A stretch of DNA of 59,694 nucleotides from Ruminococcus sp. (GTDB lineage: Bacteria; Bacillota; Clostridia; Oscillospirales; Ruminococcaceae), in assembly GCA_017525915.1 (NCBI GenBank), contig JAFXSC010000009.1:1-59694 (forward strand). Reading direction: 5' to 3'. The first letter of the stretch is position 1. The number at the start of each line of letters is the position of its first letter. Shown here piece after piece: positions 36,774 to 51,416 of the stretch. The notes under the pieces were generated by a model that worked only from the letters and a program-made list of their open reading frames with translations, did no database searches and was not told the origin of the DNA. A program made the translations under genes and the position numbers.

Positions 36774-37499
36774 TTACTTTCTGAACATACCTAAAAATCC
36801 GGATCTGCCGTTCTTATTGCCGGTATTGTCCTTCTGCTTATCCGGTGTGCTGCCGGAAGAACGTCTCATATTATCCTCCTGCACTTCCTCGCACCAGTTG
36901 CTCTCTACACAGCCCTTTTTCCTTACGCTTCCAACTGCGCGCGCTACCGAGCAGAACACTGCTCCCGTACCTGCGCGGTCGGAGTGGTACTCCACTGCAT
37001 TGTCTGCGCGAATGCCCATAGAACCGGCAGTTTCAGCCGCGTCTATATTTGCTCCGAGGAAAATGAACTCCCAGCCGTATTCCTCCTGCTCACGGGTTAT
37101 CATGCGCTTGATCTCCTTCACATCATACTTCCGGCTCGCATTCTCCATGCCGTCAGTCGTAATAACGAACAGTGTCTTTTCGGGTCTGTCCTCATCGCGT
37201 GCGTACTTGTGGATATCAGCGATGTGGCGGATAGTCTCGCCTACTGCGTCAAGAAGTGCGGTGCAGCCAGAGGGAACGTAATCCTTCCTTGTGAGCTCGG
37301 GAACGCTTTCAACGGATATCCTGTCATGCACAGTCTTGGCATCGCTGTTAAAGAAGACTGTTGTAACAAATGCTTCACCTTCCTCGTCCTTCTGCTTATT
37401 GATGAGTGAATTGAAGCCGCCGATAGTATCATCGGTAAGACCTGCCATAGAGCCGCTTTCGTCGAGTATGAATACCAGTTCAGTTAAATTCTTTTTCAT
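36774..37499 (-). CDS. VWA domain protein (YegL/TerY-like)
   Basis: This cytoplasmic von Willebrand A protein has 241 residues. The MIDAS metal site starts DESGSM (about 13-18), followed by a conserved Thr in SGCTALLDAVGE and Asp in TTDGMENAS. The tail after residue 200 is charged and disordered and ends in FLGMFRK. A similar GLF(R)K-like motif closes the middle linker of the macro protein upstream (SGLFRKN), which may mark a common partner (inference). ATG 37499 has GGAGGT 6 bases upstream. It lies 115 bases after the macro-domain gene. Confidence 0.87.
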   Translation of the reverse strand: MKKNLTELVFILDESGSMAGLTDDTIGGFNSLINKQKDEEGEAFVTTVFFNSDAKTVHDRISVESVPELTRKDYVPSGCTALLDAVGETIRHIADIHKYARDEDRPEKTLFVITTDGMENASRKYDVKEIKRMITREQEEYGWEFIFLGANIDAAETAGSMGIRADNAVEYHSDRAGTGAVFCSVARAVGSVRKKGCVESNWCEEVQEDNMRRSSGSTPDKQKDNTGNKNGRSGFLGMFRK

Positions 37500-37553
37500 A
37501 ATAATACCTCCGTTTAAGTTATCGTGTTTTCCGGAACCGCTCTGCGTTTCCTT

Positions 37554-37569
37554 TACTGTAATTACAGTA
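37554..37569. promoter_or_regulatory. 16-bp perfect palindrome upstream of the VWA gene
   Basis: TACTGTAATTACAGTA is an uninterrupted palindrome between the macro and VWA genes, 55 bases before the VWA start. It overlaps a possible minus-strand -10 box (TATACT, 37571-37566) and looks like an operator for a dimeric regulator. No matching -35 box is visible. Confidence 0.45.
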
Positions 37570-37614
37570 TACACCATTCCGGAGGTGAACTGGTCGCTTA
37601 AAAAGCGACAATTT

Positions 37615-38721
37615 TCATGCGCCGATGAGGGTCTGGTCAAAGGCAAAAAGCGTCTCGTTTATCTCAAATATGTCGTAGTTGCGGTGCTCGATGAAATACC
37701 GCACTATAAGGTCAAATTTAATGCTTCCGGACAGCGCATACCCTGCCCTTTCAAGAAGCTCTTCAGTCTCACTGAGGTCAAGTTCAAGCGCTATCGCAAA
37801 TGCGAGCGCGGTCTGTTTTTTCGGCTTGTAGCCGTTATCACTCCTTATCTTGGAAAAAAGCTTGCGGTCGATGTTTGCCTTCTTGTAGGTCTCAACATCG
37901 GTCATTCCCCTCTCGTCGATAAGCCTGAGAAGTGCCTGCGAGAACGACTCGTCCCTGCCGCGGAGAAAATCCTCGATACTCTCCTCACGCTCGTCATAGA
38001 GTGCTTCCTCCTTCATAAGCATAGGTGCGCTTGCAGCGCTTCCCTCGCTGTTCTCCTTGGCATTTTTCCTGAACAATCCAGATATCAGACCCTTGGGCTT
38101 GCTTTTGGAAGCTTCGGCAGCCTGAGACATCGCCATACCGGACATCGGCATCGCTCCATAGACCATATGCCGACGGTCGCTTTCCTCGTGGGACTTCGCA
38201 TAGGCATCGCTGATGTACTGGCGGATATTCTTCACAATGCCGGAGCTCGTCTCGAAGCTGTCCCTATCGAAAATTACAAGGGTGATATCCATATCATTCT
38301 CAGAGAGGAAAGCCTTGAATTCCGCCATTGCAGCGTCAAGAGCAAGTGCCTTCGGATAGCCGTAGACACCGGAGGATATCAGCGGAAACGCTATGCTCTC
38401 GCAGCGGTTCTCCTTTGCAAGGACAAGCGAACGCCTGTAACATGAGCGCAGGAGCTCCTCCTCGCCGTGGGTGCCGCCCTTCCAGACAGGACCGACGGTA
38501 TGGATTATGTACCGGCAGTTCAAATTGTACCCCTTGGTCAGCTTGGCATCACCTGTCTGGCAGCCGCCGAGCGTCCGGCATTCTTCAAGAAGTTCCGGTC
38601 CTGCTGCATGATGTATAGCACCGTCAACGCCTCCACCGCCGAGGAGTGATGAGTTCGCAGCGTTGACGATCGCGTCCGCACTGACCTTTGTTATATCGTT
38701 CCTGATAATATTGAATGGCAT
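37615..38721 (-). CDS. Macro domain protein with C-terminal HTH-like domain
   Basis: A macro domain (1-175) has [18 protein letters not shown] and [10 protein letters not shown], the ADP-ribose binding loops of the O-acetyl-ADP-ribose deacetylase/YmdB group. A low-complexity linker (about 175-245) follows. The last 120 residues are helical, with [23 protein letters not shown]-like spacing of an XRE-type helix-turn-helix. Macro domains remove or read ADP-ribose; the C-terminal part may bind nucleic acid or a partner. It has its own consensus promoter and is followed by the VWA gene. Confidence 0.87.
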
Positions 38722-38752
38722 AATAGCACCCCGTTTCTGTAATGATACCATT

Positions 38753-38815: not shown

Positions 38816-41800
38816 TTAGAAGTTGAAGTTGTAGAAATTCTCTGATGTGGGCTCGGGAACAGGATCCTTCTTGGAACGCTTCTCGATCTTGATGCCCTGC
38901 TTTTCAAGGTAATCCTTTGCAAGGTCTGAAGCTGCGCCCATATCCATTTCAAAGACTGTTGTATAGATAGAATTTGCAGCACTGTCAGAGAAATCTCCTG
39001 CCTCACGTTTTTCCTCGACCTGCTTGATGTACCTCTTTGTCAGCATGGACAGGTACTTCTTCTGCATACCCGAGTCCTCAACGCTGCTGTCATAAAGCAT
39101 CTGCGCCGAAACAAGCTCCTGGTCGCATATCTGATCGAATACCGTCGTAGCTGCCGAGCGGTAGATAGTAACAACATTCAACGTCATGAGGAGGCATATG
39201 CCCATTGTAACGAGCTTTGCGGTAATGACTGTCGGGGACTGCTTCTCTCGCGGCGCTCTTTCGGGCAGCCATACGGGAATGCGGTGCTTCTCCTCTCCGC
39301 AGACACGGCAGAACCTCATCTCAGGAGACAGCGGCGCTCCGCACTTGCTGCACGCCTTGTTCTTCATGCTGCGTCTGCGTGCAAAACAAAGCTCAGCGAT
39401 AAGAAGTCCGGTGAAGATGACTGCTGCAAGTATCCATAAAACTATTTTCAGGGTCTTGCCCTTTTCCTTGCCGACGCCGTTCTTGCCGGAGATATATGTC
39501 TTGTCGAACTTTCCGTCACCGTCTGAATCGACCTTCAGTTCAGTCTTTGAAGATGACTTTGTGTTAGTTGCAATGACAGTATCTGAGCTTATCGGTATGC
39601 TCTTGAATGTGCGGACATCGGAATACTCGCCCTCTTCATCGGCAAAGCTTATGCTGTAATCCATCTCGCCTTCGCCAGTACCGTTGATACAAAGCTCATA
39701 GTTCGTGTCATCGTTGAGCCTGAGCACCTTTATCTCGTCATTGTCGCCCTCGAAGGAAAGCGAACCGAACGATGTCCTTGTGCTGAGGTTATCAGGGTCT
39801 GAGGAGAGAGTCTCTCCGCCGCATTTAACTGTAACATTGACCGGACAAGCTATCCTTACTACAATGCTGTAACTTCCGCCGACGCTGTCAGCAAGCTCAT
39901 CAAATACGAATGCCAGATCGTTTGTGTCCTTGATATTGTATGCACAGCCCGGTGAAGCTATATCGTTCATGAGCTTCTGAGCTTCAGAAACAGATGTCTC
40001 AGCACCGCTGTAATCATGGAAATAGCCGAGCGAGTAAATGATAGTGCCCTTGTCCTTGACCTCGTTAGCCTTCTTGATTATCGCGGTAGAATAAGAGCCG
40101 TCATTGCCGGTAGGTCCGGCATTCGGGAAACCGTCGCTCATTACGAACATGAGCTTCCTTGGATTCTGACTGCTTTCAAGCGCTGTGTCACCAAATGCGA
40201 TACCGTCGTACATATCAGTTCTGCCGTAAGCAGACATACGCTGTATAGCATTTACAAGCTCGTCCCTGTTGCTGCTCGACAGGATATTCTGGCTTGCACT
40301 GCTTGAGTAAGTGATGAGGCTGATATCAATGCTCGGATTCTCAGTGAGAACATAGTCAACGAACTTCACAGCCGCATTTTTGGTCTCTCTCATAGGAGTA
40401 CCGTCCATACTTCCGGAAACATCGAGGACAAGAGATATCGAACGCTGGAGAGCGCCGAACTTTGTGATTATCCTGTCTGTTGACCTGTAATCGCCCGTGC
40501 TGCTGTCACTTACAAGTATATCATCTGAGGTATACCTGATGCTCTTGTTCTTGTTATCGGTAACGATTATCCTGTAAATACCGGGTGCGATGCCTTCAAG
40601 TGTGAACGAGGACGAAGTGCAGTCCTTGTCAATAACAGCGGTTCCGTCCGATACCCTGATAACAGTGAGGTGATAGTCGGAATACGGCGAATAAGCATGG
40701 TCATATACTGTGAACTCAGCATTGTTGGAATATGCCTTTTCAAATATACGGCAGGTGCCTGCACCGCTTATGCCAGCCTCGTCAAAGGCTGCAATAACAT
40801 TCATGAGCTGGCTGTCTGAAAGTTTGGTACTGCTGCCTGAAGCCCTGTTGAGCTCGATAGCTGCCGTAACAATGGTGTCCCTGAACTGCTCATAGTTCAT
40901 ACCATAGGGCATAAGTCCGAGGGAATTGTAGTAGAGATAAGCGAGCTGCTCGGTAGTAAGCGCTTCGAAATTGCCTATACCCTGTGTCATACGGTAAGCA
41001 GTGTGGGAGATAAGCGTGCTGTCGCGGTACTGCTCCTCGGCAGAAAGCCCGCAGGTTGAACCGGCTGCTTCATCAAGGGTGCGAGTATTGCCGGTGGAGG
41101 CAGGGTCGCTTATGCTCCTTGTTGCGCCTTTTGAATCGGGAGCTGATACCCAGTCACAGGAATTGTTGAACCCGCCGTTGGAATAATCCTCGATAAGCTC
41201 GGCAAAAAGGTCAGAAAGTCCGATATAGAATACCGAATCGTCATTAATGGTGAACGGAAGTATAGCCTTGGCATACTCCTTGCTCACGCCGTTGAGCGTA
41301 ATATTATCGGAAATAGCGGCAGTCGAGGCATATTCCGCAAAACCGTCATTATCCTGGTCGTTATAGCGCGCTGTAAGCTCATCCGGAACGAGTTCGCCTC
41401 GGAGATAACCGCGCTGACGGTCAGAGGCGCTGTAAAGCGTGATATAGTATTCTGTAAGACGCTTCGTGTAATTGTCGTCGAAGAAGTCGAACGCCTTTAC
41501 TGCATAGTCAAGGAGTTTCTTAGCGCCTGCGTTTTCCTTTGCGGCAGGGCTGTAACCGTCCTTGTCCGAGTAATTGTCATAGATGAATATACTGCGGATA
41601 TCATCATATAAGTAATCCTTTGCCCTGCTGTAACGCGAAAAACTCGTGCTGAAACTTGGGCGCTGGTATCTGTTCTCGTTCACACGGTCGATGATCTTTC
41701 CGTTTTCGGCATCAACATAAATGGTGTAGAGCAGATTGTTTGTATTGGGATCAAAGATATTGAATGTGTAAGCTACACGGGGATCGCCGTTTTCATCAAC

Positions 41801-42454
41801 GACGATGACTTTTCCTGCCGAACGCATAGTGTAGTCGTCAGGGTCAGCCTGAAGCTCGGACTTCATACGCTTTTCACCGTAATTCTTGGCTTCACTCTCA
41901 GAAAGGCGGTTTGAAGTGCCGAAGTTTTCGGGAAGCTGAAGGTGTCGTCCGACGATACCTACGAGCTCTCCCCTCTTGTTAGCTGTGAGCTTGAGATTAT
42001 AGCCTGTTATATACAGACCGTCCCTGGTCTGCTGGAGGGTGTACTCGTCAAATACGTCACCGTCATTGACCTCGGTAACGGTATATTCCAGTGACGGAGA
42101 TACCAGACCGATCTCCGTGGAAACGCTTTCAAGAGCATCAACTGCATCGGACTTTCCGGTGATTACTATATCAGAAGTGCCCTCAACACCGCCGCTGCGG
42201 TAGGAGATAATGCCCTTTTCCATAATGGACTTTGCTTTCAGGCTCTCCTCCTTGACCTCATCGGATATCTCCCTCTGCTCATCGCTGATGTTATCGGCTG
42301 CGAGAACATCAGACGGCTTTTTGCTGAAAAGCTTGTATATACAGAAGACGTCGATAAAGGTAGTAACGGTGATAACGCCTATCATGATCCATGTCAGGAG
42401 CCGCAGTCCTCCGCGCTTAGGAGATTTTTCCGCAGCCTTCTTTGTTTTGCTCAT
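38816..42454 (-). CDS. Giant membrane protein: thermolysin-like pseudoprotease, VWA and zinc ribbon
   Basis: This is a 1212-residue membrane protein: TM (19-43), FTP propeptide-like domain (about 105-175; YTLQQTRDGLYITGY), PepSY-like (180-260), M4 thermolysin-like region (about 270-565), beta domain (575-650), VWA (671-855; MIDAS DVSGS 678-682), TM (1003-1025), zinc ribbon (Cys 1035, 1038, 1049, 1052), TM (1077-1098) and an outer tail. The M4 part aligns by eye through ATRSISDPASTG, LSDLFAELIEDYSN and TAYRMTQG, but the HEXXH site reads KEYAK (392-396). The third ligand is Ile411 and the catalytic His is Tyr476. So it is probably an inactive scaffold that displays the VWA domain outside the cell. 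It is the last gene of the array, behind a hairpin. Confidence 0.85.
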   Translation of the reverse strand: MSKTKKAAEKSPKRGGLRLLTWIMIGVITVTTFIDVFCIYKLFSKKPSDVLAADNISDEQREISDEVKEESLKAKSIMEKGIISYRSGGVEGTSDIVITGKSDAVDALESVSTEIGLVSPSLEYTVTEVNDGDVFDEYTLQQTRDGLYITGYNLKLTANKRGELVGIVGRHLQLPENFGTSNRLSESEAKNYGEKRMKSELQADPDDYTMRSAGKVIVVDENGDPRVAYTFNIFDPNTNNLLYTIYVDAENGKIIDRVNENRYQRPSFSTSFSRYSRAKDYLYDDIRSIFIYDNYSDKDGYSPAAKENAGAKKLLDYAVKAFDFFDDNYTKRLTEYYITLYSASDRQRGYLRGELVPDELTARYNDQDNDGFAEYASTAAISDNITLNGVSKEYAKAILPFTINDDSVFYIGLSDLFAELIEDYSNGGFNNSCDWVSAPDSKGATRSISDPASTGNTRTLDEAAGSTCGLSAEEQYRDSTLISHTAYRMTQGIGNFEALTTEQLAYLYYNSLGLMPYGMNYEQFRDTIVTAAIELNRASGSSTKLSDSQLMNVIAAFDEAGISGAGTCRIFEKAYSNNAEFTVYDHAYSPYSDYHLTVIRVSDGTAVIDKDCTSSSFTLEGIAPGIYRIIVTDNKNKSIRYTSDDILVSDSSTGDYRSTDRIITKFGALQRSISLVLDVSGSMDGTPMRETKNAAVKFVDYVLTENPSIDISLITYSSSASQNILSSSNRDELVNAIQRMSAYGRTDMYDGIAFGDTALESSQNPRKLMFVMSDGFPNAGPTGNDGSYSTAIIKKANEVKDKGTIIYSLGYFHDYSGAETSVSEAQKLMNDIASPGCAYNIKDTNDLAFVFDELADSVGGSYSIVVRIACPVNVTVKCGGETLSSDPDNLSTRTSFGSLSFEGDNDEIKVLRLNDDTNYELCINGTGEGEMDYSISFADEEGEYSDVRTFKSIPISSDTVIATNTKSSSKTELKVDSDGDGKFDKTYISGKNGVGKEKGKTLKIVLWILAAVIFTGLLIAELCFARRRSMKNKACSKCGAPLSPEMRFCRVCGEEKHRIPVWLPERAPREKQSPTVITAKLVTMGICLLMTLNVVTIYRSAATTVFDQICDQELVSAQMLYDSSVEDSGMQKKYLSMLTKRYIKQVEEKREAGDFSDSAANSIYTTVFEMDMGAASDLAKDYLEKQGIKIEKRSKKDPVPEPTSENFYNFNF

Positions 42455-42543: not shown

Positions 42544-43044
42544 TTATGTCCGGTTAACATTCTTTTTCGTCAGCACGGCGATTATCAGAACACCGGCAAG
42601 TATACAGTGCGGAGCAAGAAGCACATTGCACTTAATCAGCTCCGAAGCAATACCTCCGCCAAGCTTCTCAATAGCGTCCTTGCAGTCGCCCTTGAGCTTG
42701 TAGGCATTAATGATAAGAAGGAGATATGCTATACCCTGCGAACAGGCTGCATAGAATACAGTCGCTCCTGCCTTTGTATCGTCAGCCTCAGTGAGAGCTT
42801 CGATAACGCAGAGCACTGTAACTGCTGCTGCTATATAGCCGATAATACGCGTGAACTTTGAAAAACCTGTTGATACGAGCTTTTCGCCGTCATACTCGAA
42901 GTCTGAATTCTTGCATATATCTTTTATGTCATATGTCTCATTAATACCGAGAACCTTTAACTGCAGGAAATCCACTCTGAAAAAGGCAAAAGCTGCAAAT
43001 ATCAGGAACGCCGACATAATTATTATCTTAGGTGAAAACTTCAT
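42544..43044 (-). CDS. Four-helix membrane protein, array member without zinc ribbon
   Basis: This 166-residue protein has hydrophobic helices at about 7-23, 66-84, 93-112 and 143-159. An outer loop (24-65) contains FLQLKVLGI and acidic clusters. This matches the topology of the neighbouring zinc-ribbon proteins but lacks their N-terminal CxxC pairs and Pro/Gln linker. It probably derives from them or from their membrane part (inference). GAGG precedes the ATG, and the upstream zinc-ribbon gene ends 20 bases before it. Confidence 0.7.
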   Translation of the reverse strand: MKFSPKIIIMSAFLIFAAFAFFRVDFLQLKVLGINETYDIKDICKNSDFEYDGEKLVSTGFSKFTRIIGYIAAAVTVLCVIEALTEADDTKAGATVFYAACSQGIAYLLLIINAYKLKGDCKDAIEKLGGGIASELIKCNVLLAPHCILAGVLIIAVLTKKNVNRT

Positions 43045-43063
43045 TACTCCACCTCAAATCAGG

Positions 43064-43942
43064 TCACTGACCGGGATTCTGAGTATTGTTAAAGTTCTGA
43101 GGTGCGTTGGGGTTCTGAGGAGCACCGAAGCCCTGCTGAGGAGCACCAAAGCCCTGCTGGGGAGCACCGAAGCCCTGCTGGGGAGCACCGAAGTTCTGAG
43201 GAGCGCCGAAATTCTGCTGAGGCATACCGTAGCCGCCGTTGAACTTGGGCTTGTTGCCGACCTTGATGATCTTGGAAGCAAAGAGCCAGTATACTACAAG
43301 ACCCATTGTGAAGATCATAAGGAGAATGATGGATACTGTAACGCCGCCCTTGGTCTTAGCGTCCTTCATACCGTCCTTAACTTCGCCCATTACATGGAGA
43401 CCGTAGAAAAGGAGGAACATATACATAACGCACATGGAGATAACGGAGATGCCGAGGAACTTTATTGCCTTGAGGTTATCCTTGTTGAGATAAAGGAGAG
43501 CAACGATAATGCCGCCGAGTGCGCCGATCTCTGTGAGTAAGCCGAAGAACTTCATGAATGAGTTGAAGCCTGTGTCAAGACCTTCGAGGCAGGCATCATA
43601 GCCAGCCTTCTGTCTGTCCATGCTTGTGCCCTTGTACTTCCAGTTTACGATATCAAGGCTGTGAGCGCCTACCATGAGTGCGATAAGGATACCGATAAGG
43701 ATAATCGGAATGAAGCGGTTAACAGATACATCATAGAGCATCTTGAAGTTGAATGACTTGCGCGGACCGTATGCAGCAGCAGGCGGTGCATAAACATTAG
43801 GAGCGGGAGCGCCCATAGGAGCTGCCTGCGGTGCAGGAGCTGCTGCCTGGGGTGCTGCCGGAACTGCACCGGTAGCTACGCCGCAGTTAGGGCAGTTCAC
43901 TGAATTGTCGGGAATTGTTTTTCCACAGTTGGTACAAAACAT
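43064..43942 (-). CDS. Zinc-ribbon membrane protein with Gln/Phe/Gly repeat tail
   Basis: The N-terminus MFCTNCGKTIPDNSVNCPNCG-like ribbon has two CxxC pairs (3/6, 18/21). An Ala/Pro/Gln linker (22-62) and four hydrophobic helices (about 75-95, 133-153, 160-182, 203-225) follow. The tail (240-292) contains repeats of the heptad APQQGFG. The ribbon should be cytoplasmic; the loop between the first two helices faces outward. Function is unknown. It is one of five tandem paralogues. The tail repeats are encoded by a 21-bp minisatellite that could change length. Confidence 0.75.
   Translation of the reverse strand: MFCTNCGKTIPDNSVNCPNCGVATGAVPAAPQAAAPAPQAAPMGAPAPNVYAPPAAAYGPRKSFNFKMLYDVSVNRFIPIILIGILIALMVGAHSLDIVNWKYKGTSMDRQKAGYDACLEGLDTGFNSFMKFFGLLTEIGALGGIIVALLYLNKDNLKAIKFLGISVISMCVMYMFLLFYGLHVMGEVKDGMKDAKTKGGVTVSIILLMIFTMGLVVYWLFASKIIKVGNKPKFNGGYGMPQQNFGAPQNFGAPQQGFGAPQQGFGAPQQGFGAPQNPNAPQNFNNTQNPGQ
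43117..43220 (-). repeat. 21-bp coding minisatellite
   Basis: About five imperfect 21-base units (GGAGCACCGAAGCCCTGCTG plus one base) run head to tail. Each encodes seven residues of the Pro/Gln/Gly/Phe tail. The units differ by only one to four bases, which suggests recent expansion by slippage. Confidence 0.75.
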
Positions 43943-44073
43943 ATTCTATTACCTCTCTTTTTATATTTTTGAACGCCGCAGCGCTCATATTATCATCAGC
44001 TTACCAATTCACCGGAAAACCGGCGAATTCAGAAGGAACAGCAAGTAAATCTGCTGATAATTGAAATTCACCA

Positions 44074-44886
44074 TCATTTAACTGATCTTCCGGATTTCGG
44101 CACTTTATGCTGTATGTAATAACAGCCGTAGGCTATACCGGACATAAGCAGCAGCAAGATATAAACAGTTACCGTAGGACCGCCGCTTACTTTGACACTG
44201 CTTGATATTTCATCCTTGTACTTGCTTTTTATGTAGTAGCCGTTGAAAAAGACAAGCAGATATCCCCATGACATTATTGAGGCTGAGATCCTGAGCGCGA
44301 AGAGAGCCCGATCGATCTCGTTCCTGTATGTCATATACAGGCACCGCAGAATAAACGCAGAAGCAGCGATAATCACGACTATATTGAAGTATTTCAGAAT
44401 AACTGAAAACGGAAGATCGTCAAACATATCACTGTCTATATCGGAGAGCGAGAACTCCTCCGTCCGCGTAACAGTTTCGTGGTAAGCCTTGACCTTGTAC
44501 TTGAGCTTTGCCGTATCGAAGCTGTTAAGTCCTACCATGCCTATAATAAGGATCAATATCATAATTGCTGGGGCAATTGAAGCCAGAGTTATCCTTACCG
44601 TTCTGCCGCCGACGACTATTGTCGGAGCCGTTCCGGGAGCGCGGTATGCACCGCCGCCATACGGATATCCGGTACTGCCTGACGGCGCACCGGGATAGCC
44701 TGTCGGTGTAGCGGTGTAACCTGCCGGTGCACCGGGATTACCTGTCGAAGCAGCGGGAGCATCTGCCTGCGTAACGTTACTTACCGGCGTGCTCACAGGG
44801 ACAGCCGGAGCATTCACTTTATTGCCGCACTTGGCACAGAATGCTGCGGTGTCCGGGAGCTGTGTTCCGCAAAATCTGCAAAACAT
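44074..44886 (-). CDS. Zinc-ribbon four-helix membrane protein (array member)
   Basis: The 270-residue protein begins with a ribbon (CRFCG at 3-7, CAKCG at 18-22). A Pro/Gly/Thr-rich linker with GYPGAPSG-like repeats (40-85) is followed by GGRTVRITLASIAPAIM leading into helix 1 (about 100-125). The outer loop contains the acidic LSDIDSDMFDDL motif; three more helices follow. Helix 1 and the loop are very close to those of the next gene (44914-45639), so the two look like a recent duplication. Function is unknown. AAAGAGGTGA precedes the ATG. Confidence 0.73.
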   Translation of the reverse strand: MFCRFCGTQLPDTAAFCAKCGNKVNAPAVPVSTPVSNVTQADAPAASTGNPGAPAGYTATPTGYPGAPSGSTGYPYGGGAYRAPGTAPTIVVGGRTVRITLASIAPAIMILILIIGMVGLNSFDTAKLKYKVKAYHETVTRTEEFSLSDIDSDMFDDLPFSVILKYFNIVVIIAASAFILRCLYMTYRNEIDRALFALRISASIMSWGYLLVFFNGYYIKSKYKDEISSSVKVSGGPTVTVYILLLLMSGIAYGCYYIQHKVPKSGRSVK

Positions 44887-44913
44887 AGTGTCACCTCTTT
44901 AAGAAGTCAGAAA

Positions 44914-45639
44914 TCAAACCTTAGCTTCCTGCTCCTTCTTTACCTTGTTGGAGATTGTGTAGCATCCGAAAGCGATAGCAGCCATGATAAGGAACCAGAA
45001 GTATGCACCGAATGTTGCACCGCCGCTGATCTTCAGGCCGTCGCCGCCGAGCTTGGAGTTTGTTTTGCCCTTGAGATAGAAAGCGTTGATTATGTCAAGG
45101 AGATATGCCAGAGCCAGGATAGCTCCGGAAAGACCAACTGCAAGAACTGCCTTGACAGTTTCATTCTTGTAGGTCATATATCCGCAGAGACCGAGAGCGC
45201 CGATAGAAGCGATAATGCAGATAACATTGAGGACCTTGATGACCTTTGTGAGACCTGCGTCAAGAACGTCGATAGAATCGCTGTCAACATCAGAAAGAGA
45301 TGATTTTTCTGTATCAGATACGGATACACCGTAGCCGGAGTACTTGCTCTTGATCTTGATTGTGTTGAAGCTGAATACGCCGATCATACCTATGATAAGG
45401 AAGAGGATCATGAGAGCAGGAGCAAGTGAAGCAACACTGAGCTTAACAGTTCTGCCGGCAATATTTATTGTCGGGAGGTTGCTGTCGATCTTGCTTACGC
45501 CGCCGTTTACTGCGTTTCCAAAGTTTCTTGCTGCGTTCTGGGCTGCATTCTGTGCAGGAGCTGCATTCTGGGGTGCGCCGCACTCAGGACAGTTTGCTGA
45601 TCCGTCGGGGATGTTTTTGCCACAATTCTTACATAACAT
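44914..45639 (-). CDS. Zinc-ribbon four-helix membrane protein (array member)
   Basis: This 241-residue protein has the ribbon CKNCG / CPECG (3-22), an Ala/Gln/Asn linker, then AGRTVKLSVASLAPALM into helix 1 (about 65-88). The outer loop has SSLSDVDSDSIDVL, and helices 2-4 end in a Lys/Glu-rich cytoplasmic tail. It shares the GRTV-ASxAPA entry and the LSDxDSD loop with its downstream neighbour. The acidic loop looks like a possible Ca or cation site (inference). Function is unknown. Confidence 0.73.
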   Translation of the reverse strand: MLCKNCGKNIPDGSANCPECGAPQNAAPAQNAAQNAARNFGNAVNGGVSKIDSNLPTINIAGRTVKLSVASLAPALMILFLIIGMIGVFSFNTIKIKSKYSGYGVSVSDTEKSSLSDVDSDSIDVLDAGLTKVIKVLNVICIIASIGALGLCGYMTYKNETVKAVLAVGLSGAILALAYLLDIINAFYLKGKTNSKLGGDGLKISGGATFGAYFWFLIMAAIAFGCYTISNKVKKEQEAKV

Positions 45640-45760
45640 AGTCTTTTCCTCACTTTTCCTTGAGCTGTCTCTGACAGTCTCAATAATAATTTAGGGTTTG
45701 CTTTTCCGGCTTGTTGCCTGCCGGAACCGGCTATAATACAGCCTTGCGGCTGCAACAGGG

Positions 45761-46399
45761 TTAATTGTTCGCCTCACGTTTTGCGAGACTTGCGGCATAG
45801 AACGAGAGCACTGCCGCCGCCATGCATACAGCTATCATGACGAGCGGAGCGATCGCAAGATCGAGCTCGCCGTCAGCATGATCATCACCGTTGATATGGA
45901 GATAAAGTGCAAAATCAGCGATATATGCAGCCGCATCAACTATAAGAGCCAAAGCACTCAGCCTCAGAGCCGCAGGAGCTTTCCTGCTGCCGGTAAATAT
46001 GAAGCTGATGACCGCAAGAACAACTGAAATACCGATAACTGAAAATCCGGCTATCAGCATCGTCTTAATAAACTTGCAGCCAATATCGCCGCCCTTAAGG
46101 AAATATGTGAAATAGCTGTTAAGAACAATATTATCTCTGTGCTCGTACTTCGATACCGGCATGATGATAACACCTATTGCTGAAAGAACGGAGAGTATCA
46201 CCATGAATACCGCTGTGAAATCAAGCGGACCGCCGAATCGGGCTGCCTTTGTGCTGCCATAGGCTGCCGGCGGCGGATAATAAGCCTGCTGAGACTGACC
46301 GCCATAGCCCTGCGGCTGCTGATAAGAGAGTCCTGCTCCGCATTGCGGGCAATTCACTGCGCCGTCAGGTACATTCGTACCGCATCTGCTGCATATCAT
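45761..46399 (-). CDS. Zinc-ribbon four-helix membrane protein (array member)
   Basis: A ribbon (CSRCG / CPQCG), a Gln/Tyr/Gly linker with QQPQGYGGQSQQ and four hydrophobic helices (about 60-80, 108-130, 140-160, 182-205) make up 212 residues. The outer loop after helix 1 is shorter than in its neighbours and basic-aromatic, so the array members differ mostly in that loop. The ATG lies 4 bases after the preceding stop and its GGAGGTGA site covers that stop. Confidence 0.72.
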   Translation of the reverse strand: MICSRCGTNVPDGAVNCPQCGAGLSYQQPQGYGGQSQQAYYPPPAAYGSTKAARFGGPLDFTAVFMVILSVLSAIGVIIMPVSKYEHRDNIVLNSYFTYFLKGGDIGCKFIKTMLIAGFSVIGISVVLAVISFIFTGSRKAPAALRLSALALIVDAAAYIADFALYLHINGDDHADGELDLAIAPLVMIAVCMAAAVLSFYAASLAKREANN

Positions 46400-46403
46400 A
46401 CCG

Positions 46404-47204
46404 TCACCTCCATGCCTTCTCAGCCGGAGCTGATGCTGTATTCTTCATCGACTTAGCCGCTGCGATACAGAATGCGCCGATAAGCACTCCTGCCGCTATC
46501 ATGCCGACAGGCATTATCGAAAGCTTGACGTTCTCATATTCATCCTTTGACTGTAAGAACAGACACAGAACCAAGTACATTCCGTGCGGTATCGCTGAGA
46601 TGAAGGCTGCTATACCTGCGGTCTTTCCGGCACTTGAATGCTTTCCGATAACGGCAAGTATTGCAGATATGAGCACGAGAACTGCCATCGCTGCGGCTGC
46701 TGTAAGGGCAACATAGGTCGTTGTGCTCTCCATGCCCTTTTCTTCGAGGTATTCGTCAAAATCGCCGAAGCCATCGTACTTTATTGCAGCAAAGTAGTAA
46801 TTATCCATTGTGATAGGCTCGACATATTTCTTTAGCTCGCCGTCCCGACCGCCGCCTTTATAGAAGCCACGCTCAACGTTGAAGATCGTTCCCTTGAAAA
46901 TGCAGGCAATGAGCATGCCTACCGCCATAAGGATAGCAATCATAAGGATGAGCTTCGCGGCGTTCTGAGCATTCCCGGCAGGTCTGGCAGCGTACTGCGT
47001 CTGCTGATGCCCCTGCGGTGCGCTGTACTGCGGCTGGGGGGCGCTGTACTGCGGCTGTGGCGGCATACCGTACCCCGGCTGCTGATGGCCCTGAGGCGGA
47101 CCATAGTTAGGCTGAGCCTGCGGTACTGCCGGCTGAGGAGCGCCGCAATTCTTGCAGAACTTTGTTCCGTCCGGCAGCTGTGTACCGCACTTGTTGCAAA
47201 ACAT
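46404..47204 (-). CDS. Zinc-ribbon four-helix membrane protein (array member)
   Basis: The first array gene encodes 266 residues. A ribbon (CNKCG / CKNCG) is followed by a Pro/Gln/Tyr-rich linker with YSAPQPQYSAPQ-like repeats (25-75), helix 1 (about 82-105) and a long outer loop (106-160) with many Tyr, Gly and acidic residues. Three further helices end in a small cytoplasmic tail. ATG 47204 is chosen because GGAGG lies 7 bases upstream, whereas the ATG at 47222 has none. It begins 48 bases after the dockerin-esterase gene with no terminator between, so the two are probably co-transcribed. Confidence 0.73.
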   Translation of the reverse strand: MFCNKCGTQLPDGTKFCKNCGAPQPAVPQAQPNYGPPQGHQQPGYGMPPQPQYSAPQPQYSAPQGHQQTQYAARPAGNAQNAAKLILMIAILMAVGMLIACIFKGTIFNVERGFYKGGGRDGELKKYVEPITMDNYYFAAIKYDGFGDFDEYLEEKGMESTTTYVALTAAAAMAVLVLISAILAVIGKHSSAGKTAGIAAFISAIPHGMYLVLCLFLQSKDEYENVKLSIMPVGMIAAGVLIGAFCIAAAKSMKNTASAPAEKAWR

Positions 47205-47252
47205 TTCAATTCCTCCGATCATTGCTCATTTCAGCGTCAGCGGCCATGAGCA

Positions 47253-48557
47253 TTAATTTGCTGGAACATAATTCAGACCGAGCACTGTGCGTATCTTATC
47301 TGCCAGTATCTCGGCATTTATCTTATGGGTCGCCTCAGAAGGGTGCCAGTCCGCTCCGTAGCCGTCGCTGTAACTCTGGGTGGGCGAAAGATAGCACATT
47401 ATGCTGTTGTCACCGGTCTTTGCACGGTAATTCTCAACAGCCTTCTCTATCATCTGATATTCAGAAGTACAGCCCATGATACCGAGCGTACAGATAATGT
47501 ATGCGTGCGGGTTGTTATCCCTGATCACGCCGAGGAAATCCTCATAGGCGCTGATGAACTCCGCGCCGCGGCTGTCAGGGTCCCTGTCTATATATGTAGA
47601 ATCGTTCGTGCCGAGATTGAGCACGATGACATCGCACGGCTTTGCGCTGAAATCCCACGGTGAGGAATAAGCCTTCAATGAGCCGACGAGCTGATAATAA
47701 GGCGGCACTGTTCTTCCTGCTACCTTTGAGCCGTCAGCAGAATATCCGGAAATAATACCGTGTCCGCTGTAACATACCGCACTGTAATCCGCGCCGAGTT
47801 CTTCCGCCGTAAGATAAGCATACGACTTCATAAAATTCTCGGTGGTAGTCTTGAAATGTTCATCCTGCGAAGCCGCCTCAACTCCGTAGGCACAGGTTAT
47901 CGAATCACCGATGAACTCGATGCGGAGCTCCTTTTCCTTTGCAGGAACTACCGGCTCTGCGGCACTGCTTTCCGTCGTAACAGCGGAAATACCCACCGCA
48001 CCGTTATCTGCCTCGGAGAGGTGTATCACCTTGACGGAGGCTATACGTTCGGTGTTGCCGCTGAAAAGCTCAACGGTCTCGCTTGTGCTGCTCATAACGT
48101 CATCGCGGATGATAACGCCGTCAACTATCACGGCATACCTTGACCGGAAATCCTTAGCCGATGAAATACTTGCATCGCCCCGGAGAGTGACGCTTGCCGA
48201 GCTTGCGCTGACCGTGAATTCAACAGCCGAGCCGCTCTGCACGAGCCACGCAGTACCGTCCTTATACAGGACTCTGCCGGTATATCTGACGTATTCCTCG
48301 GTCACAGGACTTACCTTTTCGGAATGAGCGGCAGCTGAAACTACTGCCCTCCTCATCCTTATCATATCGAAAACATCAACATGACCGTCATTATTGATAT
48401 CCTGTCCCTCTGCAACCGGTGCTTCGCCAAGAAGTGAATCCCTCATGTCCTTAAGGTCCTTCTCAGTGTATTTGCGGCTGGCCGAATATACCGCCGCTGC
48501 CAGAGCCGCTGACGATACAGCGGCAGCCGCCAGAAAGGCAGCAATACGCTTTTTCAT
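47253..48557 (-). CDS. Secreted SGNH esterase with single dockerin-type repeat (CE2-like)
   Basis: This exported protein has 434 residues. A signal peptide (1-25) precedes one dockerin-type Ca-binding repeat, DINNDGHVDVFDMIRMRR (53-70). A beta-rich domain (85-200) and an SGNH hydrolase domain (210-430) follow. Catalytic marks are Ser219 in GDSITCAYG, Asn318 in LGTND and the Asp403-His405 pair in DWHPS. The beta domain plus SGNH arrangement fits CE2-type acetyl-polysaccharide esterases. A normal type I dockerin has two repeats; only one is seen, so binding to a cohesin is doubtful. ATG 48557 follows a GGGGGG stretch. Confidence 0.87.
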   Translation of the reverse strand: MKKRIAAFLAAAAVSSAALAAAVYSASRKYTEKDLKDMRDSLLGEAPVAEGQDINNDGHVDVFDMIRMRRAVVSAAAHSEKVSPVTEEYVRYTGRVLYKDGTAWLVQSGSAVEFTVSASSASVTLRGDASISSAKDFRSRYAVIVDGVIIRDDVMSSTSETVELFSGNTERIASVKVIHLSEADNGAVGISAVTTESSAAEPVVPAKEKELRIEFIGDSITCAYGVEAASQDEHFKTTTENFMKSYAYLTAEELGADYSAVCYSGHGIISGYSADGSKVAGRTVPPYYQLVGSLKAYSSPWDFSAKPCDVIVLNLGTNDSTYIDRDPDSRGAEFISAYEDFLGVIRDNNPHAYIICTLGIMGCTSEYQMIEKAVENYRAKTGDNSIMCYLSPTQSYSDGYGADWHPSEATHKINAEILADKIRTVLGLNYVPAN

Positions 48558-48593
48558 ACTCAATGTCCCCCCAAGGACACAAATATTTACTTT

Positions 48594-48622
48594 ATTATAT
48601 ATTATTTCATCACTGATGTCAA
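48594..48622 (-). promoter_or_regulatory. Promoter for the esterase and zinc-ribbon array
   Basis: On the minus strand TTGACA (48622-48617) and TATAAT (48599-48594), spacer 17, both perfect, 37 bases before the esterase start. Confidence 0.8.
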
Positions 48623-48731: not shown

Positions 48732-49253
48732 CTACCTTGGAACAGTCCTGTCGGCGTGTTCACAGCATCGGACGAGCATATTCCATGTCGCACTGTCCAC
48801 CTTGCCGGTCACGGGCAGCCCAGCCCTCCTCTGGAACGCCATGACCGCCTCCTCTGTCGTGGCATCGTAGTTTCCGCACACATCCACGCACGGAGCATTG
48901 TCATAACGGTCGCCAATGTCGTTGAGCATCGCCTGTATGATGTAAATTAGCTGTCCCTTGTCACCGTTTCCGGCAACATAGACCGCTGACGGGAATACAT
49001 TGTAGGGTGCAGGCGCAGCGCCGATATAACTGCGGTACACCCTCACTATCCTGTTCCATGTGGCAGGGTCGGTATTGCCGGTCTCGGGAAGACCGTATTC
49101 ACGCTGAAAAGCCCTCACCGCAAGGGCAGTCTCCGCGCCGTAGCTGCCGTCAGGCACTACCTCCGGTATCCTGTCATTGAACAGGGATATGGCGTAGAGA
49201 TACCTCTGTATCTCCATGATATGCTGCCTGCGCTGAGCATCTGTATAAGCCAT
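48732..49253 (-). CDS. Protein with two peptidoglycan-binding domains
   Basis: This 173-residue protein has two PG_binding_1 modules, about 10-80 and 90-170. Each shows the ETALAVRAFQREYGLPETG-type core, here EEAVMAFQRRAGLPVTG in the second, and closes in TWN. No signal peptide or catalytic domain is seen. ATG 49253 has AGGAGGAG 4 bases upstream; the longer frame starts GTG inside the upstream stop. It is the third gene of a tightly packed trio that may act at the spore or forespore surface (inference from the SpoIID-like partner). Confidence 0.82.
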   Translation of the reverse strand: MAYTDAQRRQHIMEIQRYLYAISLFNDRIPEVVPDGSYGAETALAVRAFQREYGLPETGNTDPATWNRIVRVYRSYIGAAPAPYNVFPSAVYVAGNGDKGQLIYIIQAMLNDIGDRYDNAPCVDVCGNYDATTEEAVMAFQRRAGLPVTGKVDSATWNMLVRCCEHADRTVPR

Positions 49254-49264
49254 AGTCTCCTCCT

Positions 49265-50662
49265 TCACTGTGCTGTAATAGTGTATCCCGGCGACTGGTA
49301 GGGTCTTTTGTCAAATCCGTATTTCAGATCCGAGTAAACACCGGCTATCTTATCCCACGTAACTGCCCCGACAAGCCCGGTCGGGTCTATGCCGAACTGC
49401 TTCTGGAAAGCCGTCACAGACTGCTTTGTCACGGGTCCGAAATACCCTGTATTGTTAACGGCAGGGATATTGCTGTAAGTACCGTTTATCAGCGTCAGAT
49501 ACTCCTGTATTATCTTCACGGACTCGCCGCGGTCGCCCTCGCGCAGAACAGTTCCCGGATACAGCGCGACTGCGGTGTACTCAGGCGGCACCGACTCGGC
49601 TATTCCCTGATATGCACGGTAAAGGTCGTTGCGCGTTGCACGGTCTACCTCCCCGGTCTGCGGAAGACCGAACACTCTCTGGAAGGACTTGACCGAGCGC
49701 TCGGTCTTTTCCCCGAAATATCCTGTTATCTCGACCGGCTCGACCGCCTCGTAGTAAGCACCGATGACCGCAAGGTAATATTGCAGCATACTGACCTCGA
49801 TGCTCTGCATACCTATCTTCAAGTCCTCCGTGAAGCGCTCCTCTATCTCGTCGTACCTCACGCCCTCGGAATTCAGCTCTGCTATGCGCTTTACGCTCGT
49901 ATAGATATAGGCAATCCTGTACCAGACTGCGCTGTCCACAACACCCGTGACCTCCATACCGAATACATCCTGAAATTTTCTGACCGCCTCCTCGGTAGCC
50001 GCATCGAAGATACCGTCCGCAGCCGGTATCTTGGGTATCGCCGGATAGCTGCGCGATATACGGTTGAGGTATATCTGCAAGGACCTCACGTCATTGCCGG
50101 CTGAACCGAATTTCAGTTCTATACCGGGATATGACGGCATTGCCGACCTGACCGCGGCGTTTTTTACGATGTCGATATCGTCCCCGTAGTAGTATTGCAG
50201 TATCTCATAGGGTGTGAACCCTTCGTTGGCAAGTGAGACAGTTCCCCACTGCGACAAGCCCTCGCAGGTCACGCTCGTACCGTTGCAGAATGCCGTGAAA
50301 AGCGGCTCGACCACTCCCCTTCTGCTCACATAATCGTTGTAAAGCTCATCAACAAGATAGCCTATGTTCTGGAAGTATTCCCTGCCGTTAATAAATTTCT
50401 GGTCGAACTGCGTGGTGGAGGTAATGTCGAAGTCGTACCCTCTCGCCCTGTACCACTCTGTGTATATGCGGTTGAGTGCAAAGCTCGTTATCGCGTAGAT
50501 ATTAGCACGCAGAGCGCTTTCCGGCCATGTCGGGTATATCTCGCTCGATGCAACGTTCTTGATGTATGACGCAAAGTCAACGGTAACGTTCGGCGCATCG
50601 GAATCCGGAGATCCGAGGTGAACGGTAATAGTCTCGGGTATGAATGGAGCTCCGCTAAGCAT
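49265..50662 (-). CDS. SpoIID-like domain with three peptidoglycan-binding modules
   Basis: The N-terminal 170 residues resemble the SpoIID/LytB lytic-transglycosylase-related domain (YIKNVASSEIYPTWPESALRAN, then FALNRIY). Three PG_binding_1 modules follow at about 185-260, 285-360 and 380-455, each with a KSFQRVFGLPQTG-like core. There is no signal peptide. The typical N-terminal export signal of SpoIID is absent, as is any membrane anchor, so how it reaches the wall is unclear. Its ATG follows the previous stop by one base and its end abuts the next gene. Confidence 0.82.
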   Translation of the reverse strand: MLSGAPFIPETITVHLGSPDSDAPNVTVDFASYIKNVASSEIYPTWPESALRANIYAITSFALNRIYTEWYRARGYDFDITSTTQFDQKFINGREYFQNIGYLVDELYNDYVSRRGVVEPLFTAFCNGTSVTCEGLSQWGTVSLANEGFTPYEILQYYYGDDIDIVKNAAVRSAMPSYPGIELKFGSAGNDVRSLQIYLNRISRSYPAIPKIPAADGIFDAATEEAVRKFQDVFGMEVTGVVDSAVWYRIAYIYTSVKRIAELNSEGVRYDEIEERFTEDLKIGMQSIEVSMLQYYLAVIGAYYEAVEPVEITGYFGEKTERSVKSFQRVFGLPQTGEVDRATRNDLYRAYQGIAESVPPEYTAVALYPGTVLREGDRGESVKIIQEYLTLINGTYSNIPAVNNTGYFGPVTKQSVTAFQKQFGIDPTGLVGAVTWDKIAGVYSDLKYGFDKRPYQSPGYTITAQ

Positions 50663-50663
50663 A

Positions 50664-51416
50664 TCAGCCTCCCTCCTTGTCTGTGATGTCGAAATCCGGT
50701 TCCTGATTGAAGTAGGTAACTGTCTCGTCAGAACCGGACATGAAGACCGGCACCGGTATCATATTGAAGTTCTGCACCGACGTTATCCCCGAAAATACGG
50801 GAACATCGACGCTCCGCGCATTGAAGTAGCCCTTTGCGGTTACGCTCACGTCAAACAGGTTGTATGGACGCTTATCCGGCGAGGGGTACTGCGAAAGTCC
50901 CGGTGCAGGCACAGGCACCTCGAATTTCTCAGTAGTGCCGCTGATATTGGTCAGTCCCGAAGCTATGAGCATACGTTTTCCGTCAACCGTTGCAGTTACG
51001 GAAACAGTTGCACCCTCTATCGCGGAGGATTCGTCGCCGGCCCGCACATTCACGAGAATATAGCCCTTTGAATCCCCGAGGCTCTCCTCGGAAACATATT
51101 CCGGCGGCTGTGAATCATTGTCATCAACTGTGCCGTCGTCGGTATTGAGGTCCGAAAGGTCAGGGTCGGGATATCGGCTGTTGTAGTCCTCTGCAATGCC
51201 TGCATCTTCTGCATCGTTCTCCGGATGCGGAGCCCACGCAGTATCATCTTGAGCTTCCGGCTCTGACTGTACCGGCTCTTCCGGCATCGGCTGCACAGTC
51301 TCATCCACCGGCGGCGCTTTCTGCGGCACTTCACCTCTCGAAGTGCTCCTGCCGTAAAGCCGCATCATCTCGTTCATGTATTTTTCTGCCTGTATCTCCA
51401 TCTCACTTCTGTCCAT
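50664..51416 (-). CDS. Hypothetical protein with C-terminal carboxypeptidase-regulatory-like domain
   Basis: The first 115 residues are very acidic, rich in Pro, Glu, Asp and Ser, and probably disordered. From about residue 118 a beta-sandwich of the carboxypeptidase regulatory type is seen, with GYILVNVRAGDESSAIEGATVSV, then a SRYPSPDKRPYNLFDVSVTAKGY-like core. The last 30 residues end in PDFDITDKEGG. Unknown function; it heads the trio with the SpoIID-like and peptidoglycan-binding genes. The -10 box upstream (TATAAT, 51465-51460 on the minus strand) lacks a sigma-A -35, so another sigma factor may read it (inference). Confidence 0.7.
   Translation of the reverse strand: MDRSEMEIQAEKYMNEMMRLYGRSTSRGEVPQKAPPVDETVQPMPEEPVQSEPEAQDDTAWAPHPENDAEDAGIAEDYNSRYPDPDLSDLNTDDGTVDDNDSQPPEYVSEESLGDSKGYILVNVRAGDESSAIEGATVSVTATVDGKRMLIASGLTNISGTTEKFEVPVPAPGLSQYPSPDKRPYNLFDVSVTAKGYFNARSVDVPVFSGITSVQNFNMIPVPVFMSGSDETVTYFNQEPDFDITDKEGG

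Follow-up and report, generated by a model that had tools for sequence, protein, structure and literature searches.

The window, that is, the whole stretch of 59,694 nucleotides of a Ruminococcus sp. that was analysed, carries on its minus strand a single open reading frame (38816-42454) encoding a protein of 1212 residues, hereafter the window protein. All features located below lie on the same strand. The whole gene reads as a transmembrane segment (TM1), an FTP-PepSY-type prodomain, a thermolysin-fold pseudoprotease head, a VWA domain, a post-VWA beta domain, a second transmembrane segment (TM2), a zinc ribbon, a third transmembrane segment (TM3) and an outer tail. The prodomain-like region (residues 90-262; 41669-42187) was recognized by Pfam PepSY at residues 185-256 (25.9 bits against a cut-off of 24.0) and by phmmer, which matched the window protein to the thermolysin precursor 5a3y (E 3e-6 for the whole sequence) through residues 130-268 (0.0011 alone) and, more weakly, residues 403-557 (0.56 alone). 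Of the FTP and PepSY domains named in a preliminary description of this DNA, the second was recovered; the FTP model gave no match in the window protein up to E 1 and is above cut-off in the relatives L012, L035 and L037.

The head (residues 262-565; 40760-41671), with its substituted catalytic site, was defined by Pfam Peptidase_M4_C (413-561), by the predicted structure and by individual residues. It is joined by a region that is mostly beta in the model's secondary structure (residues 566-664; 40463-40759) to the VWA domain (residues 673-849; 39908-40438), in which the MIDAS comprises D678-S680-S682, T746 and D774. Peptidase_M4_C, PepSY and VWA (673-849) are the Pfam models above their cut-offs. 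The post-VWA domain (residues 849-993; 39476-39910) is all-beta, has no Pfam match and ends in a DxDGDGxxD loop. The zinc ribbon (residues 1033-1054; 39293-39358), with the pattern CSKC...CRVC, is presumed to be cytosolic; zinc-ribbon Pfam matches between residues 1021 and 1054 are below cut-offs. The C-terminal domain (residues 1101-1212; 38819-39154) is presumed to lie outside and is kept across the M4-headed family.

Hydropathy placed TM1 at residues 15-44 (42323-42412), TM2 at 999-1027 (39374-39460) and TM3 at 1073-1100 (39155-39238). Lys and Arg residues flank TM1 on its N-terminal side and TM2 on its C-terminal side. By the positive-inside rule, these flanks suggest an N-terminus and a ribbon on the inner side of the membrane, with the head, the VWA domain and the last 110 residues on the outer side.

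Six small membrane genes lie just upstream (42544-47222). The products of five of them carry a zinc ribbon at the N-terminus, ahead of hydrophobic segments, and one (42544-43044) has no ribbon. They are preceded by a CE2/GDSL esterase gene (47253-48563) with a sub-threshold dockerin match, the first gene of the presumed transcript, and by a perfect sigma-70 consensus, TTGACA-17-TATAAT (48594-48622). As they share one strand, the membrane genes and the M4-VWA gene possibly belong to the same transcript. A second, near-perfect promoter (38781-38753) precedes the downstream macro-domain gene; the promoter scan returned 30 promoter-like sites against 16.0 expected. Seven of the 13 window proteins that were scanned with Pfam were also compared with the PADLOC anti-phage models and gave no match at E 0.01.

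The substituted catalytic site and the M4-headed relatives

At the HExxH position, the head carries K392-E393-Y-A-K396 (41267-41281). I411 (41222-41224) occupies the position of the zinc ligand Glu166 and Y476 (41027-41029) that of His231, while R446 (41117-41119), the equivalent of thermolysin Arg203, is kept. These assignments are those of the preliminary description, and its inactive M4 fold is borne out by Pfam M4_C, the predicted structure and the substituted residues. HExxH is absent from the whole protein (KEYAK at 392-396), the head has neither the downstream Glu ligand nor the catalytic His231, and it contains a single His. Homology to thermolysin is apparent both from the sequence and from the predicted structure, although the model was built on an alignment that includes intact M4 relatives and is not independent of them. 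Sequence and model together show what we read as a catalytically dead M4 head, whose zinc site has been lost in the lineage of the window protein.

In the window's own genome, the sole M4_C match is the window protein itself, Peptidase_M4 has no match, and no second match to the whole window protein was obtained; these M4_C absences are limited by the model, which also missed intact-site relatives in genus g113. The result bears on the idea that the pseudo-head serves an active M4 protease as its decoy or regulator, competing for the substrates or inhibitors of a sibling enzyme. Section 6 of PMC3650047 describes the roles of inactive zincins as not well understood and suggests decoy or accessory roles for them generally, and further M4_C proteins do occur in two other genomes (five in G319, one in G393). 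Since no such sibling is matched beside the window protein, we regard this explanation as very improbable.

A draw of 297 genomes from the family yielded M4-headed relatives, alike in length and domain order, in 5 further genomes; the genus yielded 6 further among 125, and two other genera gave matches in 6 of 7 and 4 of 16 genomes, which partly overlap the family draw. Sixteen M4-headed proteins, spread over three genera, were usable. Left out were G1174, a body fragment of 97 positions; L090, the N-terminal contig of G1171, which was kept apart from L089; and matches to the VWA or the M4 part alone. Among 394 genomes of the order and 311 of the class, the prodomain, M4 head and VWA were jointly matched only in the window protein; as no more than two candidates per genome were scored, absences in these draws are lower bounds. 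For the whole L035 protein, M4_C was not listed by Pfam at E 0.1, yet the region scored 40 bits in the genome search.

HExxH is present in nine of the sixteen proteins, each with the whole thermolysin set (E411, D415, R446 and H476 in window numbering, and N353-A354). The architecture is thus not intrinsically that of a pseudoprotease, as had been supposed, and its body also carries other enzymes. The seven proteins without HExxH are the four of the window clade and three of g71. At the positions of H142, E143, H146, E166, D170, R203 and H231, the window clade (n = 4) reads K/R, E, K, I/Q, D, R and Y/N/L, and the inactive g71 proteins read E/S/K, A, Q/N, K/V/E, E, G and N/T/S. The K/R...K pattern of the window clade follows a rule given in PMC3650047, namely that in inactive zincins Arg or Lys takes the place of both HExxH His residues at a higher frequency than expected.

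All four proteins of the window clade keep K/R392, E393, K396, D415 and R446, and up to 17 residues between both former ligand helices are gone. The substrate edge of thermolysin, N112-A113 (N353-A354), is lost in this clade, which counts against a simple retention of peptide binding and suggests that any new ligand would not be held like a thermolysin substrate. On the scaffold tree, two changes of the site are needed, on well-supported branches; the head-only tree favours two changes, which are not forced by its starred branches, and a single change is found in 2 % of bootstrap trees. The placements of L039, on a long branch, and of L092 are unsure. If these changes are read as losses, the family has apparently given up its catalytic site on at least two occasions.

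The body behaves differently from the site. The MIDAS (DxSxS...T...D) and the four ribbon Cys are complete in 16 of 16 proteins, in agreement with the intact MIDAS and internal ribbon of the preliminary description, whose membrane tether is likewise supported. Mean pairwise identity is 29.0 % in the prodomain (105 pairs) and, over 120 pairs, 29.8 % in the head, 31.4 % in residues 566-664, 51.7 % in the VWA domain, 60.4 % in the beta domain, which is the best-conserved part, 39.5 % in TM2-ribbon-TM3 and 40.0 % in the C-terminal domain. The variability spans the whole outer N-terminal part, the prodomain and residues 566-664 diverging like the head, and the ribbon part is not highly conserved.

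Apparent exchange of heads and the VWA-beta-TM body

Two pairs of sister scaffolds were found to be mosaics of head and body. L037 and L038, both with intact sites, share 87-100 % identity per 150-nt window across the gene and its flanks (2.5 kb downstream, 0.7 kb upstream); the exception is nucleotides 601-1650 of the gene, where identity drops to 42-82 %. The M4 domain of this pair has a dS of 1.50, the remaining domains have values of 0.11-0.34, and the N-terminal TM part is identical. L035 and L036, both inactive, show the opposite pattern: identity reaches 95-100 % over nucleotides 601-1950 and is 76-92 % in the rest of the gene, leaving aside a final window that overlaps a gapped stretch. 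Their heads have a dS of 0.022, against 0.53-1.43 outside the head. The standard deviation between 300-nt windows is 0.9-4.7 points in eight neighbour genes, and 16.6 and 7.5 points in the M4-VWA gene of the same pairs.

A block test placed the edges at window residues 226-490 (L037/L038) and 204-563 (L035/L036), with 0 of 200 permutations as extreme. It also beat all 200 permutations for two pairs with mild contrasts, the window protein and L034 (0.697/0.532 over 51-674) and L010/L012 (0.700/0.530 over 119-407), the latter having no clear dS contrast (1.39 vs 1.19). The test alone is therefore not specific, and we place the weight on effect size and dS. For the window protein and L034, head dS is 1.93 (interval 1.32 to unbounded) against 1.06 (interval 0.86-1.33), which only hints at a head swap in the window's own lineage. 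The four mosaic genomes are drafts, and chimeric assembly could mimic mosaics, but the deviation concerns one and the same domain in both pairs and runs in opposite directions. No donor heads were found. The sequences of both pairs show head/body mosaics, in which the head would move as a cassette, and the near-identical inactive head of L035 and L036 points to its recent spread.

Two further observations were made at these loci. In L035/L036, identity reaches 99 % in one more 150-nt window, some 0.9 kb upstream of the gene and beside the point where the gene content of the two loci diverges. In G1171, the gene is split over two contigs near profile position 225, near the left edge of the blocks, which is a hint only.

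The head might instead be a relic, a decaying and functionless protease domain retained because the VWA-ribbon body is useful. Its low identity, the apparently repeated loss of the site and the residues missing between the ligand helices throughout the window clade would fit such decay. Nevertheless, the frame is open and the predicted fold kept, the five residues listed above are retained in all four proteins, and dN/dS of the head is 0.128 between the window protein and L034, a rough ratio given a head dS of 1.9. The recent spread of one inactive head would also be odd for a useless domain, and we consider a relic unlikely.

The body is not restricted to M4 heads. Thirteen further proteins combine the VWA and post-VWA domains with other heads: subtilases (L074, L100), SGNH/GDSL hydrolases (L099, L101, L102, L103 and L104, three above the Pfam cut-off and two just below) and heads of no assigned type (L072, L078). 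In L073, L079, L105 and L106, the heads, which lack Pfam support, show a His-Gly...Cys pattern and are presumably clan-CD cysteine-protease-like. A presumed inner module is present in nine of the thirteen, namely an FHA domain in L074 and a zinc ribbon in L072, L078, L079, L099, L100, L104, L105 and L106, the ribbon being above the Pfam cut-off in L072, L099, L100 and L106 and recognized in the others by paired CxxC and weaker scores. Neither module was seen in L073, L101, L102 and L103. These carriers came from the order (3 of 394 genomes, besides the window), phylum (1 of 398) and class draws (8 of 311) and from a contig of Oscillospiraceae bacterium SIG598, a member of a family in the class Clostridia. 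Including the window's, the carriers represent at least ten families. The comparison shows a constant part, VWA-beta-TM, often with an inner ribbon, under an outer head that varies.

These carriers may belong to a mainly clostridial surface system with interchangeable heads, in which one MIDAS-VWA/beta/TM body displays unrelated hydrolases (M4, subtilase, SGNH, cysteine-protease-like) or dead versions of them, the heads being swapped by homologous recombination while the body and its inner adaptor, ribbon or FHA, stay fixed. We put this forward tentatively, as a generalization that is rather doubtful at present. If true, it would suit recognition of, or antagonism to, changing neighbours, viruses or host polymers, and dead heads would be pure binding modules.

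Upstream membrane genes and the proposed scaffold

The genes upstream of the window protein allow a different interpretation, in which the protein is an accessory subunit of a membrane complex, resembling CLCA. Its VWA/MIDAS would engage the outer loops of multi-pass membrane proteins, the ribbon-bearing ones encoded upstream, and the protease fold would serve only folding or maturation. The five ribbon-bearing genes and the related one stand between the esterase and the M4-VWA gene on one strand, and L034 repeats this order with six ribbon-bearing genes plus one that lacks the ribbon; L035 has one ribbon gene and L036 has two. Strong members of the ribbon-membrane family (>150 bits) occur in 6 of 125 genomes of the genus, including all four window-clade genomes and none of the three with an intact M4 head, although the profile was built from those same four genomes, whose strong matches arise by construction. 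In PMC8480199, CLCA1 combines a self-cleaving zincin domain with a VWA domain for which MIDAS engagement of the channel ANO1 is speculated, and a fragment without enzymatic activity still stimulates channels. On the other hand, the G299 locus has the esterase and a ribbon gene without the M4-VWA gene, the contig of G392 ends after the same two genes in a genome that gave no M4-VWA match, the M4-VWA gene of L037 (intact site) adjoins the esterase without an array, and such neighbours are missing from the stretches examined around relatives in other genera. From these loci, the array is linked in place to the inactive clade yet separable from it, and we consider the accessory subunit possible but not probable.

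Sequence and model show the domain order, the intact MIDAS and ribbon, and the relatives with an intact site. On this basis, we propose that the window protein is a cell-surface scaffold on a fixed VWA/beta/TM2/ribbon body rather than a protease, and we give this proposal, with the roles of its parts, an even chance. The anchored body, comprising the MIDAS VWA, the beta domain, TM2 and the inner ribbon, would hold the VWA domain and the thermolysin-fold head outside. The high conservation of the VWA and beta domains suggests that the body docks through its MIDAS on a conserved partner of its own cell, whereas the divergence and exchange of the head suggest that it meets a variable target outside. 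The ribbon would link the protein to a partner in the cytosol or the membrane, for which the upstream genes for ribbon-bearing membrane proteins offer candidates, and signalling from the outer part to the ribbon, as suggested in the preliminary description, may occur. Relatives whose site is intact would use the head to cut a target held beside the VWA domain; in the window's lineage, the head may hold or recognize the target without cutting.

The M4-VWA family offers a natural experiment on inactive zincins, in which the same body carries intact or dead thermolysin heads, with two apparent losses of differing residue patterns and apparently recent head swaps. Head exchange between closely related scaffolds makes the question of what inactive zincins do testable. 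The post-VWA beta domain, in turn, provides a marker of a surface-hydrolase family.

Comparison with known systems

The window protein resembles thermolysin-type M4 proteases in its predicted fold, in the order of its prodomain and in the equivalents of R203 and D170, and its relatives in the same genus keep HExxH...E...H. It differs in being membrane-tethered and fused to a VWA domain, a beta domain and a ribbon, and its head has replaced zinc ligands and catalytic His, a shortened inter-helix loop and a single His. To our knowledge, VWA pilus-tip adhesins (Mfa5, SpaC) have neither an M4 head nor a ribbon, and CLCA proteins have neither FTP-PepSY nor an inner zinc ribbon.

PMC7159879 describes VWA-centred conflict systems, the vWA-MoxR ternary systems, which share with the present family a VWA component with variable effector domains; one of their VWA proteins has TM helices and an outside VWA domain. 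They differ in that no MoxR was found among 13 window proteins scanned with Pfam and in that the VWA domain of the window protein is presumed to be outside. The preliminary description had taken the M4-VWA-ribbon architecture to be undescribed, and no description was found among open-licence PMC papers; the zincin-VWA layout itself, however, has a parallel. CLCA proteins, as described in PMC3650047 and PMC8480199, have a zincin domain followed by a VWA domain with a MIDAS, and many members have substituted active sites, like the window head. The head is M4, and CLCA_N gave no Pfam match in the window protein up to E 1. In these sources, CLCA sets the published precedent for joining a zincin with substituted sites to a VWA domain, and the likeness to the window protein is one of layout rather than of demonstrated common descent.

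Genes flanking the M4-VWA gene

Upstream of the M4-VWA gene, six small membrane proteins are encoded in a tandem array (42544-47222, minus strand), five of which possess an N-terminal zinc ribbon. A profile search found strong relatives of this array family (>150 bits) in 6 of 125 genomes of the genus, the profile itself having been built from four of these six. The esterase gene adjoins a group (48732-51416, minus strand) that encodes a SpoIID-like protein bearing peptidoglycan-binding repeats, together with two smaller partner proteins. This group is kept beside the esterase in the window, at the loci of the inactive relatives L035 and L036, and at L093 and L094, and partly at L037, whose M4 site is intact.

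Downstream, a macro-domain protein gene (37615-38751, minus strand) overlaps a VWA gene (36774-37646, minus strand). The macro-domain protein scores above the NCBIfam cut-off for an O-acetyl-ADP-ribose deacetylase model, and the Pfam table of the VWA protein contains no TM-helix signal. A near-consensus promoter lies before the macro-domain gene, at 38781-38753.

VWA proteins with other catalytic domains

Three proteins of the genus (L041, L042 and L045; approximately 900-1100 aa) exhibit an N-terminal VWA. Pfam places a lipase-type domain C-terminal of it, Lipase_3 in L041 and LCAT in L045, the latter protein additionally matching the window protein in the region that follows its VWA. In five genomes of the class, the VWA-beta-TM body carries SGNH/GDSL hydrolases (L099, L101-L104). 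A Subtilase-Big_2-VWA-beta-TM-FHA protein (L074:7435-10899, minus strand) has FHA in the position of the zinc ribbon.

Further M4 proteins

One genome, G319, encodes five additional M4_C proteins besides an inactive M4-VWA protein. Another ribbon-M4 combination is a zinc ribbon-TM-FTP-PepSY-M4 protein (L075:6478-8883, plus strand), which lacks a VWA and has an intact HEFTH motif.
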